From assembly GCA_027946365.1 (NCBI GenBank), contig JAPEUQ010000002.1, forward strand, positions 3,906,001-3,970,000: a DNA stretch of 64,000 bases, in the 5' to 3' direction. The translations under genes and the position numbers were made by a program. The DNA comes from Kalmusia sp. IMI 367209 (lineage: Eukaryota > Ascomycota > Dothideomycetes > Pleosporales > Didymosphaeriaceae). Under the pieces are notes generated by a model. It did not search any database, was not told where the DNA came from, and saw nothing but the letters and a program-made list of their open reading frames with translations. Shown here piece by piece: positions 7,375-43,918 of this stretch; positions within the stretch are counted from its first letter, which is position 1; every line of letters starts with the position of its first letter.

Positions 7375-7945
7375 GATCATTTTGTCGTTGAATCATGATT
7401 GCTGCTAGGTCGAGGCATAAGCTGTTTGAGTTGTTGATTGACGTGTGTATGCAGTATCCGTAGATAGTAAGTGTCCTTAGCTATTGTACGCACAGCTTAT
7501 ATCCATTATTGTTGCGTGTAGAATGAAGCGAGGCAGGGCGAGGTGGGGAAAGTGATGCAAAGAGAAGGAGAAAACGGCGAGATGCTTCGGTAAGCCTATA
7601 GGCTGACCACGCGAAACTTGAGCAATCGAAACATCTTTGATATTCTAATCATGTTGGGGGCGTCTGTCTATTCTTTCTAAAATAGCGTATTCGGTGTTCT
7701 TTATAGTATGAATAAACCTTCATTATTTCAGTCATGAAACTCGTCGTACTGCGAAACGTACACTTTTAGCACGAGTGTAATACCGTAAGATCACTGTTGT
7801 CGCCTCAATAAAGTGACCTTGCTCTTTCGGGATGCGGGGCTCGCATCTTCGATCGAATCCCACCTTCAACACCATCCCGCGTTTTCCACTTTGCAAGTCA
7901 ATCAAAAACTTTTACGATACCTCAAACTGCATATTTATTCTTGCT
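7375..7945. other. Intergenic stretch, promoter of the HET gene
   Basis: No coding signal. The HET-domain gene immediately downstream would be driven from here. Confidence 0.5.
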
Positions 7946-10364
7946 ATGCTCCAATACTTCGGTTCTAGACAGGCTCCTAGGAAATATCCCGTTCTCGTGG
8001 AAGTCGCGTCAGCTAAGCCAAAAGCCGCCGCCGCTCCCGAATGGATAGAATGCTCGCGCTGTAGTGCGACAATTTGGACAGCGGAACTGTTTTCAGAGCT
8101 ACAATCCCTACCAATCAAAGATCAAAGACTTATCAATGTGCATAATGTACATTCGTCAGAGTTGCGGGCTGCAGTGATGCAAGGCTGCCAGTTTTGCCGA
8201 AGCTTAGCTGATGGGATTCATGGCCGAGTATTTCTAGATGCTCTATATGATCAGTGGAACAAGACTGAGAGTTGGCCATCTACCGGTAGCCATGCGGATG
8301 TAGAAGAGAAATTGGAGGGAGGAAGTGAGAAAAACAACGAGGCTGAAGAGGCTCTTGGCGTGGAGGAGGACGATGATGACGAAAGTGGTTGGAAAGATGT
8401 TTCTGCCTTCAATGAAGAGTTTTATGAGGATGAGTTAACTGGAGGATGGAATGCGTATGAGGACAAGGACACGCTAGAATTGCCCTGTCATTTCTCTATG
8501 ACATTATCGTTTGAGAGAGGCGAAGATGACCTGTTCACATTCCTGAATGTTCATCTTGAGTCAATCGATCAGGAAGAAGATAATGCCGTTAGGAGACTGA
8601 GAGGAGAAAGAGCAGTCGACTTGCGGTACCACACTAATTCTGAAGATCAGCGTCTGGATAGTCGTACAGCAGACACTTACAATGCCGGAGCTTCTGTCCA
8701 GATGCGCAATCGATTTTTCCCGCTCACTTCAGCAGATACGATAATTGGGTCTCAGAAAAATATGCGTCATATATACAAATGGACACAGGGGACACTTAAA
8801 CATTCACAATTTGTGACTGCTGACTCGATTTTGTTACCCAGAAGATTGATCAGCGTCAGCCCCGACATGCTTCGTGTTGTGGAAACTGCGACCATCAAAG
8901 TTGATGATGAAGGTTCATCCAAGGGATTCGTCGCGCTAAGCTATGTCTGGGGCCTGAGCCAGACATTCGTTTTGACAACCGATACGATAGATGAGCTCGA
9001 GTCATCTTTTGAGATTCTCCAGCTCCCTCAAACCATACAAGATGCTATTCAAGTCACTCGCGCTATAGGTTTACAATATCTCTGGGTCGATGCTTTGTTA
9101 GTCTTTGACCATGAGTACCCCAATAACTCATAAGTAAGTAATAACACGAGACAGATGCATTCTCCAGGACTCTTCTGCCGATAAAACTACCGAACTCCCC
9201 AAAATGCGTAAGATATACGAATCCGCGGCAGTGACCCTCATTGCCGCCGTAGCACGGTCCGCTACTGAAGGCTTCCTTCATCACCAGATCCAGACACCAC
9301 ACGCCATCCCTCCAATACTCATCCCCAGTCGTACACAGTCTACATACAATATCATCTTAAGCTATCCGGCAGCCTACGAGCGTCGATCCGACCCCATCAA
9401 CCTCCGTGCTTGGACATTCCAAGAACTTCTCCTATCTCCACGAGCGATCCTATTTTCGTACAGGGGTCTCGAATTCGTTGATCGCAATCACATCCCTGCA
9501 GCTGATGGTTCGACATCTGGTCGTGACCCTCAACTCCCAAGCCTACCCTGGTTCAGTCGACTCTTCCGCTTGACACACATCGACCCCGAGAATCTCAGGT
9601 CCGTTTGGTTGACCGTGCGTGGTGAATATAGTCGTAGGAATTTGAGCTATGCTGGAGACAAATTGGTGGCAATCTCTGCGGTTGCGGAAGAGATTGGGCA
9701 AGGTTATGGGGGCAGGTATCTGGCAGGGCTGTGGGAAAAGGATCTCGAGAGCGAGCTGAAGTGGAGTCGAGCTGATGCTACATACGTCAATGAACCTGGA
9801 ACTATACAAACAAAAATTGGAGGGCGACCTAGTGAGTACGTGGCGCCAAGTTGGAGCTGGGCGGCCATCGAAAGCCCGGTTGACGACTTCCATATCGATG
9901 GTGACGCTAAGCCGCTAGAAGACAAACTTGGGTTTAAGATCCTCAGTTGCGAGGTCAAACATGCCGTCCCGGGGTTTCAATACGGTGCCGTGGTATCCGG
10001 GGCTCTGCATCTGCATGGCCGTATCCATTCGTTCTTTTGGCGTCCACATAATGAGAAATTCATCTCTCCTGACCAGACTGATGGTGCTCTGGCTGTGAAA
10101 AGCGAGGCTGAACCACATACGGAATTACAAGTAGGCGAGGCCATTCTTGACGCATTACATGAGGAAATAGTAGATGGTTGTGTGGTCGATGTTCTGGCTA
10201 TGGGGTTGATTGAGCAGATCCCTAACAAGGTAGAGGTAGAGGGACTAGTGCTACTACCAGTCGGAGAGGAGGAGGAGGGAAAGTGGAGGAGAGTGGGATT
10301 TGCTAAATTGAGGGTTAGTGATTTATTTAAAGAGTGCCAGGGCATGGATGTTATTGTTATCTAG
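7946..10364 (+). CDS. HET-domain (heterokaryon incompatibility) protein
   Basis: Exons 7946-9096 and 9155-10364, 786 residues. The 58-bp intron starts GTTAGT and ends ACAG; splicing restores the canonical block YLWVDALCILQD followed by LPKMRKIYESA. HET-domain hallmarks appear in order: FVALSYVWG, then YLWVDALCILQD, then the RAWTFQE block. The start at 7946 (MLQYFGSRQAP) is preferred; an in-frame ATG at 7832 would add 38 residues. An N-terminal CSRC-x(n)-GCQFC pattern may bind metal, and an acidic stretch lies near residues 110-150. HET proteins trigger cell death after fusion of genetically different hyphae. The specific partner is unknown. The gene converges on the S8 pseudogene, 300 bp away. 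Confidence 0.92.
9097..9154 (+). other. HET gene intron
   Basis: 58 bp, GTTAGT...ACAG. It interrupts the codon between DAL and CILQD and otherwise introduces a stop at 9131. Confidence 0.85.
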
Positions 10365-41221: not shown

Positions 41222-42400
41222 TCAATCAAAACAAGCCTTCGTCCTCCACCAAAATGTTCTATTGGAATTCGGCACATCCTCTCCTCTCCTTCCTTCCGGG
41301 AACGCCCACCAATCTAACGCATCTAGACAATGTTGCACATGCTCCCTGTCAATATCCCTTCCGCAAACATGTCGTCCCGTATCCCTTGCTATCACGTACC
41401 TCTTCACCGCCAACACACAGTGTGCAAAGTGGAACAGCTCGTCGGTAGGCACTGCGTCAATCGCCGGACTGCCCAGCCATGTGGCGTTGAGGTAGGATCC
41501 GTTGAGTCGAATTTGGTTCATTTCAGGATACCGTTTTTGGAGCAGAGATTGGTAGCGAGCTTCTGCGGGGGAGAAGAGGTGCGATGGGATGAGGGCTTGG
41601 TCGTCGATGCGAAGCGTCCAGGAGGACGGGTCGTGCGCGTAGGAAGGGTAGGAGGTCCATGATGAAGCATTTTCGGCGTTGACGGAGAGTTGATATTTGG
41701 GGCCGATGCTACCACTGGTGTCGTATTGGATCCAGGTGTGAAGTTTGTCGGGGTCGTTGTTTCTGGTGGCGTGATTGATGGATAGGATTAGGATGATGAA
41801 GATGATTACTACGGCACACATGAAGTAGTAAATATTCTTGGAGGAGAGCGATGACTTGAGTTGGCCTTGATCAGGATGTAGTGCTGATTCTCTGGATTGG
41901 CGGAGTGTAAACGAAATTTCTTTTAGTTGCTCTGGCAGAAGACCCAGCCGATCGAGCAGTCTTTCATCGTATCGTGCTAGCACAGCCAGCGTTGAATACT
42001 GTCCGTCATTAACAGTTTTTTCGGCTTGTGCTTTGGATGTGTGGAACAAGAAGCAATCTTGGAGTTGCTTCCTATCCTCTGCAAAACACTGCAACGTCTT
42101 AAGCGCATCATCTAGACTATTAGTGGACTTGATGGACGATCTGGTAGTCCACAAGATAAAGGTGCCGCGCTTTTCAAACTCAAGTATAATGGTTGGTGCT
42201 CTATCTCGATCATGGGCTTCGGTGAGGAGGTCTCTCAGACTTGTCTCGTACCCAGCGCTTCCTTTTTCCGAATGATATAGTAAGCAGACAAATATCTCTA
42301 GGGGTGAGCATAGCCGCTCGTAAGAGATATTTTGCATGTCTGATTGATCAGAAAACATACTTTGCAAAAGATTGCAGTCTGGCTCCAAAGAGACAGACAA
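41222..42400 (-). CDS. UstYa-like (DUF3328) membrane protein with long N-terminal extension
   Basis: A single exon of 392 residues. A transmembrane helix lies at about 190-209 (IYYFMCAVVIIFIILILS). The C-terminal domain carries two HxxHC motifs, HFAHC (324-328) and HVQHC (354-358), 30 residues apart; paired HxxHC is the hallmark of UstYa/DUF3328 proteins, which cyclise the core peptides of dikaritin RiPPs. Several NxS/T sites lie after the helix, consistent with a lumenal domain. The first ~185 residues are an extension I do not recognise; usual family members begin close to the helix. The gene is divergent from the Kex2-repeat precursor at 43565, a typical pairing. Assignment rests on the motifs and topology only. 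Confidence 0.6.
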   Translation of the reverse strand: MSVSLEPDCNLLQSMFSDQSDMQNISYERLCSPLEIFVCLLYHSEKGSAGYETSLRDLLTEAHDRDRAPTIILEFEKRGTFILWTTRSSIKSTNSLDDALKTLQCFAEDRKQLQDCFLFHTSKAQAEKTVNDGQYSTLAVLARYDERLLDRLGLLPEQLKEISFTLRQSRESALHPDQGQLKSSLSSKNIYYFMCAVVIIFIILILSINHATRNNDPDKLHTWIQYDTSGSIGPKYQLSVNAENASSWTSYPSYAHDPSSWTLRIDDQALIPSHLFSPAEARYQSLLQKRYPEMNQIRLNGSYLNATWLGSPAIDAVPTDELFHFAHCVLAVKRYVIARDTGRHVCGRDIDREHVQHCLDALDWWAFPEGRRGEDVPNSNRTFWWRTKACFD

Positions 42401-43564
42401 AGCTAGGAGACGAAAGTGAAAGCAAAAGAGCCCTAGATTCTTGAGGAGCCGTTGTCAAAGGAACTGTATGAAGACACCAGACCAAAATCGTAATCACTTG
42501 CCAAACTCAATTCGCACTTTTCCAAAATGGCCGCGGAGCAGACTACCATTACGATCTACCGTTGCTCTGCAGCAGACCACATCGTATAGACGGAGTCCGC
42601 GACTCCACCACACGAAGTGGGGTATCAAAGTGTCCACCAAATCTTGCTTCGAGCCGCCCAACTACCACGTCTTTTACGACAGAGACCCTGATCCAACATC
42701 ATCCTCAATAAGCGACTGTACAGCTGAGACAATGCACATTCGTACACCAAGCCCACTTTGACAATATCAAAACGGAAGTGATGCGCCGGCCCGGCCCTCT
42801 AACGGAGAACGATCGACAACATAACTGTGGGGTGACATCGGAATCGCAATATAGAATACGATGCGTTGCTTGATATGGGGCCCGGAAGCGATGGTCTGTC
42901 GATCCGGCTGAACATGTGCAGGTGGCGCTCGTATCCGGGGGCATTTGGGTCGGCGTATTACACTTGCCAACGTTAAAGTTCGATTCTAGGGAACGAAGCT
43001 TTTTTAGATGGAGAAATTTTTGGAAACAAGAGAAACTCCTAAAAATGAACATGTTGACCTTGTATTACGATGTGTAAATAGTGGGTTACCTAAAATTTGG
43101 ATGCACGCCAGCGTCAAGTTGTGCTGGAGAGGCCTCTCAATTAGATCGAGCCAGATCCACTGAAAACTCGATTGACAGCTTAAGAGCCTTGAAACAGGTA
43201 CTAGGCATCCATTCTGGCAGGTTCTATGGTACGCAATGTGCGAAGATGCTATAGCGCGTATGCAAACGATCGTCACAGGACAGGCTAGAAAATAACCCCG
43301 GTTGTCAATTGGTAGAGAACAGCCGCCATACTATAATCCTCACGAGTACGAGATAGGATTCTGCCGGAGTCCGTAGTACTACATGAATCACTGAGCGTGA
43401 AAGTAACACTGGAGCATTCTTGCCAACGGATCTTGTGAAAGTATGCCTCACCTGTCAAGTATAAATAAGATCCTATCTCAGTCAAAATGAGGCACATGCT
43501 CACATCATATTTGCTTCTTTACTTTCCCTTGGCACACCAGAATCTTTATTCAGGCCTTCGCCCT
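42401..43564. promoter_or_regulatory. Divergent intergenic region between UstYa-like gene and peptide precursor
   Basis: 1.16 kb with no supported gene. Because both flanking genes start at its edges, it should contain both promoters and could coordinate them. No specific operator was recognised. Confidence 0.4.
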
Positions 43565-43918
43565 ATGAATATGAAGATCCTTGCAATCGCTGCTCTCGTT
43601 TCTGCCACCCTGGCCCTTCCGTAAGTCCACACAATACTTCATATTTCAAGTCCCTTCTAAAGAGCAGCTAGAACGCCAGTGGAGCAGATCGGCTGTCCTT
43701 CGCCATGGTGTATCACCAAACGGGTTGCCGAACCCGAGCCAGCGGAGGCCATCTGTCCCATCGGGTACCCACCGACATGGCCGGGATGTATCACAAAGAG
43801 AAAGGCGGGGCCCGAACCAGCCGCTGAACCTGAGACTGAACCTGAAACTGTGCCTGGGGAGGCTATTTGCGGTCCTGGAATTCCGTGGCCAGGATGCATT
43901 ACTAAACGCGATGGGTAA
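43565..43918 (+). CDS. Kex2-processed secreted peptide precursor with three Cys-bounded repeats (RiPP-like or pheromone-like)
   Basis: Exons 43565-43620 and 43672-43918 give 100 residues. The 51-bp intron has a GTAAGT donor and CTAG acceptor. A signal peptide (MKILAIAALVSATLALP) is followed by three repeats, each ending CITKR: GCPSPWCITKR, ICPIGYPPTWPGCITKR and ICGPGIPWPGCITKR. Spacers are rich in X-Ala/X-Pro pairs (VAEPEPAEA, KAGPEPAAEPETEP), the form trimmed by Ste13-type dipeptidyl aminopeptidase in pheromone precursors. The two Cys of each peptide are 4, 10 and 8 residues apart, and the peptides differ, unlike the near-identical copies usual in alpha-pheromones. The divergent UstYa-like neighbour argues for a RiPP; the spacer design argues for a pheromone. 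The stop may be just after KRDG or, with a further intron, a few residues later. Confidence 0.75.

Follow-up and report, generated by a model that had tools for sequence, protein, structure and literature searches.

A Putative Two-Gene Peptide Pathway

Two divergently oriented neighboring genes in the endophyte cf. Kalmusia sp. IMI 367209, one encoding a UstYa-like candidate copper oxidase and the other a secretory precursor of repeated peptides, moderately likely form a minimal dikaritin-like RiPP pathway in which the oxidase would modify cores that carry Cys and Trp. We infer by analogy both the action of the oxidase on the neighboring precursor and the chemistry that it would perform. The genome, published as that of an endophyte, comprises 30 contigs, 42.78 Mb and 13,561 genes (PMC10027605). 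The pair lies within the window, the whole stretch of 64,000 nucleotides that was analyzed (contig C12, 3906001-3970000), and is laid out as follows.

41222..42358, minus strand: UstYa/DUF3328-like oxidase, 378 aa (ORF, 50 homologs, conserved motifs in all 49 rows of the alignment, AlphaFold2)
41327..41341, minus strand: second HxxHC of the oxidase, HVQHC, residues 340-344 (translation, alignment)
41348..41371, minus strand: family-specific HVCGRDID of the oxidase, residues 330-337 (alignment)
41417..41431, minus strand: first HxxHC of the oxidase, HFAHC, residues 310-314 (translation, alignment)
42359..43564, no strand: divergent intergenic region, 1,206 bases (distance between the start codons)
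43565..43620, plus strand: precursor exon 1, signal-peptide-like MNMKILAIAALVSATLALP (gene model, hydropathy)
43621..43671, plus strand: GT-AG intron, 51 bases (gene model)
43672..43918, plus strand: precursor exon 2, three Kex2 units with E/P/A-rich spacers (gene model, repeat tests)
Within exon 2, unit 1: (IG)CPSPWCIT-KR
Within exon 2, unit 2: (I)CPIGYPPTWPGCIT-KR
Within exon 2, unit 3: (I)CGPGIPWPGCIT-KR

A preliminary description of this DNA had proposed a possible new fungal RiPP locus with a shared promoter. The assignment to a UstYa-type oxidase is supported and the Kex2-repeat precursor is real, while the oxidase missed the PF11807 cut-off; what was called a shared promoter corresponds to the divergent intergenic stretch of 1,206 bases. 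On the oxidase side, a Pfam scan identified genes for Ist1 and for a MutS-family protein, the latter of which we take to be MSH2, and the two ORFs on the precursor side have no Pfam match at E ≤0.01. Across 14 ORFs, a subset of those in the window, the Pfam scan turned up no tyrosinase, methyltransferase, transporter or peptidase. One or more of these accessory functions is missing from some known dikaritin pathways. Elsewhere in the window, at 7817-10364 (plus strand), a HET domain extends over two open frames (profile positions 1-55, then 56-146), which are probably a single intron-bearing gene.

The Peptide Precursor

The precursor is a protein of 100 aa encoded by two exons at 43565-43918; the gene model is a prediction, and one alternative acceptor, which starts the exon at 43663, likewise leaves the frame open. 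Its N-terminus is hydrophobic on the Kyte-Doolittle scale and resembles a signal peptide. Three units at KR sites follow, each ending in CITKR and each containing two Cys and one Trp, an arrangement that agrees with one feature of KEPs, namely at least three repeats of at least 8 aa between Kex2 sites. The gene model confirms the 100-residue precursor with three CITKR-ended peptides that had been described from this DNA, and the three cores had been written correctly. The Cys pair of each core is located at or close to the core ends and encloses loops of 4, 10, and 8 residues. Trp is the sole aromatic residue common to all three cores, Tyr being present in one. CITKR is identical in all three units and WPGCITKR in two of them (units 2 and 3), with unit 1 carrying SPWCITKR, two residues off the longer stretch; the cores are unequal in both sequence and length. 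The computed [M+H]+ values of the reduced peptides are 1076.4903 for IGCPSPWCIT, 1617.7804 for ICPIGYPPTWPGCIT, and 1313.6381 for ICGPGIPWPGCIT.

Selection marks the precursor as a protein-coding gene. When the residues of exon 2 were shuffled 20,000 times, a 5-mer seen three times arose in only 6 of the shuffles. Silent change gives the stronger test. Between units 2 and 3, the WPGCITKR stretch has diverged at 7 bases in six of its eight codons, every change being synonymous, a pattern that 200,000 random placements never produced, whichever of two substitution models was applied. The pairs of CITKR stretches differ at 4, 4, and 6 bases, again all synonymous, and random placements equaled this in 200, 200, and 1 of 100,000 cases, respectively. 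The silent differences show that the ends of the units are under selection, whereas the inter-Cys loops vary. A chance ORF, to which the lack of any homolog or identical listed protein could point, is hardly credible beside this purely synonymous divergence, the clean intron and signal-peptide-like exon, and a KEP scan that called nothing in 40 shuffles of the window.

Searching the genome at the protein level turned up this one copy of the precursor. A permissive pattern modeled on the end of the repeat matched 25 places in the genome, three of which are the precursor itself, and eight other places that were examined (L028-L035) contained no KEP call. Homologs were sought in a protein database, where none of 35 candidates reached E ≤10, and in a second search, where none was present among the 7,989 candidates listed. 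Since no identical protein was listed, the gene seems to be unannotated, and the absence of homologs is weak evidence.

Precursors of this general shape also serve in mating. In its N-terminus like a signal peptide, its KR sites, the X-A/X-P dipeptides of its spacers and the two Cys of each unit, the window precursor resembles the two-Cys alpha-pheromones reported from other Dothideomycetes (PMC6339444), and it might on these grounds encode the alpha-type mating pheromone of the fungus, either linear or with a disulfide. We regard this as very improbable, and the alpha-pheromone identity was rejected once a canonical alpha-pheromone-type precursor came to light on another contig (C23:793056-793310; L051:1378-2115), with eight copies of CRFPGQPC, X-A/X-P spacers, and none of the listed PF11807 matches within 250 kb. 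That separate gene supports a non-pheromone role for the window precursor. Whereas alpha-pheromone precursors repeat a nearly uniform unit built on a two-Cys GQ or PYGxPxG core, the cores of the window precursor differ from one another, contain neither element, and enclose loops of variable length. Umemura's survey also argues against a mating role: among 216 KEPs taken as putative pheromones of fungi, all but three have no DUF3328 neighbor. Searches of the genome with PYGxPxG-variant patterns gave 0 matches. The pattern WCxxxG[QH]xC gave 12, none of them a KEP by eye, and missed the real pheromone because N, not W, precedes its Cys.

The Neighboring Oxidase and Its Family

Counted from its first ATG, the oxidase has 378 aa; the 392 aa given earlier would need translation to begin 14 codons further upstream, at a TTG. 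Its two HxxHC motifs, HFAHC (H310) and HVQHC (H340), are 30 residues apart, exactly as first noted. The deposited protein N0V90_002733 (340 aa) has 100% identity over 85% of the oxidase, agreeing through residue 320 and then continuing into a different end that lacks the second HxxHC, probably as a result of a false intron in the annotation.

Homologs of the oxidase number 50 proteins, including one each from Kalmusia, Periconia digitata and Stictis urceolatum. The alignment has 49 rows, which are the window protein and 48 homologs; P0002 (the same gene with an altered end) and P0035 (267 aa) were omitted. Both HxxHC motifs, an HVCxRD-type motif between them, Cys 314, 332, 344, and 376, and a sequon at N230 on the C-terminal side of the transmembrane (TM) segment are conserved in every row. 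Among the canonical UstYa proteins of this genome, 13 distinct motif stretches (in 14 rows, two of which are from one gene) contain neither HxCxRD nor any other Cys between the motifs. At the DNA level, the exact HVCGRDID pattern was found twice in the genome, in the window oxidase and in a paralog at C6:1150085-1151017, the sole other HVCxRD-type gene found. Conservation is concentrated around the motifs: in the close clade (25 rows), median identity to the oxidase is 0.74 at residues 301-350 vs 0.33 at residues 18-160. The protein database holds 25 close relatives with 42-55% identity, and in the tree the window protein groups with full support in a set of 26 rows; the C6 paralog, on its long branch, is of unsure position. 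A scan of viral and prokaryote contigs with the oxidase alignment confirmed no relatives, as expected for a fungal gene.

Against PF11807, where the preliminary description had listed the lack of a match among its refuting conditions, the oxidase scores 13.9 bits (E 0.051), below the curated gathering cut-off of 25. It is for this reason classed here as UstYa-like and not as a PF11807 member. The same profile is matched at E ≤0.1 by 13 of the 49 aligned rows, and PF11807 is listed among the precomputed domains of the homolog P0028. Alignment with hhalign of the oxidase family to 12 canonical UstYa proteins of the genome gave a probability of 87.5% and an E value of 3.6e-6, over a match of just 42 columns that corresponds to the motif region and aligns both HxxHC motifs. 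Motif, TM helix and profile match together support the UstYa-type assignment first made for this protein.

The AlphaFold2 model of the oxidase has a mean pLDDT of 85.9 and a pTM of 0.50, and is confident at residues ~20-105, 122-160, and most of 211-350 and 361-378. The predicted fold comprises an alpha/beta N-terminal domain (~20-160), a TM helix at residues 173-200 that coincides with the one strong hydrophobic segment of the protein, and a C-terminal domain (205-378) with the topology strand-helix(HxxHC)-helix(HxxHC)-strand-strand. Because the N230 sequon is present in all 49 rows, the C-terminal domain is probably lumenal. In the reported work on CctR, a DUF3328 protein, each monomer binds two copper ions, and activity depends on Cu, O2 and electrons and is lost when the double HxxHC, the copper site, is mutated to Ala; DUF3328 was proposed as a dicopper enzyme family (PMC12435403). 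CctR and PF11807 proteins share with the window oxidase a single predicted TM segment, the double HxxHC on two helices, a predicted lumenal C-terminal domain and a C-terminal Cys. In contrast, CctR is described as having a disordered N-terminus and a TM segment at 38-59 (PMC12435403), whereas the window oxidase has ~140 residues predicted to be folded ahead of its TM segment. The window oxidase further differs from CctR and other DUF3328 proteins in the HVCxRDID-type motif between its HxxHC motifs. The best reading of these features is that the oxidase represents a divergent UstYa-like subfamily.

UstYa-Type Genes and KEPs Elsewhere in the Genome

The genome contains 102 PF11807 matches, or roughly 72 genes after merging, and sequence close to such a match is scarce (0.49% of the genome within 1.3 kb, 0.94% within 3 kb). 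The C6 paralog is located ~5 kb from an eight-unit KEP (AVAVGPIIEEAGEGYES). This KEP, UstYa-type ORFs and the paralog make up a RiPP-type cluster at ~1150-1158 kb of that contig (L012:7971-9131, L013:459-6358). ORFs with an HxxHC pair flank the KEP on both sides, two identified by script and a third by eye; one of six scanned ORF pieces in the cluster passes PF11807, and other UstYa-type genes are closer to the KEP than the paralog is.

A KEP scan of 15 of the 55 merged UstYa loci called four, one of which (L038) is doubtful by eye. The sole call in 23 control sources (130,554 bases) was the window precursor; these controls are non-random, being the window and 22 three-kb loci that pattern searches had brought in, and two of those loci overlap the pair described here. 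Nothing was called when the window and the 15 loci were each shuffled 40 times. The cut-offs (5 of 10 matches, minimum entropy) had been tightened after a looser run called two Arg-rich low-complexity ORFs of the window. According to a published survey, 31.8% of DUF3328 counts fall within 15 genes of a KEP, with a peak at the adjacent position (PMC7329392). The contrast between UstYa loci and controls agrees with that enrichment, in a way that is suggestive only.

Two of the scanned UstYa loci hold KEP-like ORFs of other kinds. L037 (minus strand, from 2954) contains ATYAPLVYTGGL units, the end of which presumably resembles asperipin-type cores. L047 (plus strand, from 7193) contains DPHHKGRKNN units, and di-histidine units are reported among DUF3328-linked KEP types (PMC7329392).

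Possible Maturation of the Peptides

In the dikaritin-like pathway that we favor, the precursor would enter the ER and Kex2 would cleave behind each KR. Kex1 would then remove KR, and trimming of the E/P/A spacers may fall to Ste13 or other peptidases, leaving peptides of ~10-15 residues. The oxidase would act in the secretory lumen, anchored by its TM helix and with the folded N-terminal domain in the cytosol. With Cu and O2, it would carry out hydrogen abstraction in the conserved element W-(PG)-C-I-T, which is the probable target because it is held constant and contains the sole aromatic residue present in all cores. The likeliest outcome would be a ring involving Trp and the adjacent Cys or Ile. 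With loops as different as 4, 10, and 8 residues, the secreted products would then form a small related family.

The chief alternative inside this RiPP reading is a disulfide accompanied by simple oxidation: the oxidase would hydroxylate, desaturate or chlorinate the peptide, and the two Cys of each core would make the ring. Hydroxylation, halogenation and desaturation are among the reported reactions of DUF3328 enzymes (PMC12435403, PMC10512285). By this analogy such an outcome, counted as part of the RiPP reading, is conceivable and yet rather unlikely.

Alternatively, the peptides may be secreted disulfide rings of a hormone- or effector-like kind, closed by ordinary ER oxidation, with the oxidase acting elsewhere. 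The exactly two Cys of each core, at or near its ends, would suit such peptides, and the oxidase has many relatives where the precursor has none known, and any co-conservation of the pair is hypothetical. Against this, the precursor adjoins one of just two members of the oxidase family found in the genome, only 0.94% of which is within 3 kb of a PF11807 match; the paralog is near a KEP as well, and DUF3328 genes are enriched beside KEPs in the published survey. On this evidence, disulfide-only peptides are possible, though we hold them to be the less likely case. The mature peptides may carry a Trp ring, a disulfide with another oxidation, or a disulfide alone.

The RiPP reading is favored because CITKR and WPGCITKR are under selection next to a UstYa-like gene, because the paralog too is located near a KEP in a genome where PF11807-proximal sequence is rare, and because DUF3328 genes are published as peaking beside KEPs. 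It is weakened by the missed PF11807 cut-off and the shortness of the profile match (42 columns), by the lack of a precursor homolog despite 25 close oxidase relatives in the database, by repeats less uniform than those of typical KEPs with Tyr in one core of three, by the lack of accessory genes in the 14 scanned ORFs, and by a KEP comparison that is small, has non-random controls and used cut-offs tightened after a first run.

A bolder proposal, which we consider a long shot, is that this UstYa-like subfamily, with its cytosolic folded domain and HVCxRD-modified copper site, crosslinks Trp to Cys or Ile within Cys-bounded Kex2 peptides. It would constitute an ascomycete copper-enzyme route to tryptathionine-like rings, and each ortholog in other fungi would have a fast-evolving, unannotated precursor as its partner.

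Significance and Relation to Known Systems

If the oxidase acts on these Cys/Trp cores, the known chemistry of DUF3328 proteins would extend past Tyr-based rings. A 2025 paper in JACS reportedly describes copper-dependent macrocyclization by a DUF3328 protein. In the open-licence literature, as represented by titles and abstract text and with subscription papers mostly outside it, no report of the oxidase subfamily or of Cys/Trp KEPs with a UstYa partner was found. Fungal RiPP surveys, among them PMC7329392, are described as searching by DUF3328 matches and annotated precursors. Loci such as this one could systematically escape them because the enzyme scores below the Pfam cut-off, its deposited model lacks the second HxxHC, and the precursor is absent from the protein database searched. 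The HVCxRD motif together with the N-terminal domain provides a concrete signature for mining.

Among known systems, the dikaritins (ustiloxin, phomopsin, asperipin-2a, victorin and epichloecyclin) are close in design, with a signal peptide, Kex2-separated cores and an adjoining UstYa-type oxidase. The window pair likewise places a multicore precursor beside a DUF3328-type protein, provided that the oxidase is counted as UstYa-like. Tyr is the crosslinked residue in known dikaritins, whereas the cores here have two Cys and one Trp each, are of unequal length, and include Tyr in only one of three. The oxidase also differs from those of dikaritins in scoring below the PF11807 cut-off and in its extra N-terminal domain and HVCxRD motif, and the locus differs in having no tyrosinase or methyltransferase in the scanned window ORFs. 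A small gene set has a precedent in the asperipin-2a pathway, for which one UstYa-type protein and few genes are reported (PMC7329392, PMC10512285).

Ascomycete alpha-pheromone precursors share the secretory Kex2-repeat organization, the E/P/A spacers and the two Cys per unit. The window precursor differs from them in lacking a GQ core, in its unequal loops, in having Trp near the second Cys, and in its oxidase neighbor. Amatoxins and phallotoxins, according to a review, also combine Cys and Trp in a small peptide and join them in a Trp-Cys bridge, the tryptathionine; these are basidiomycete products of POP-processed precursors, in contrast to the Kex2-processed secretory precursor described here, and the analogy is chemical only. 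The best available placement of the locus is within the known dikaritin-like type, from which it differs in a divergent UstYa-like oxidase subfamily and in cores built on Cys and Trp.
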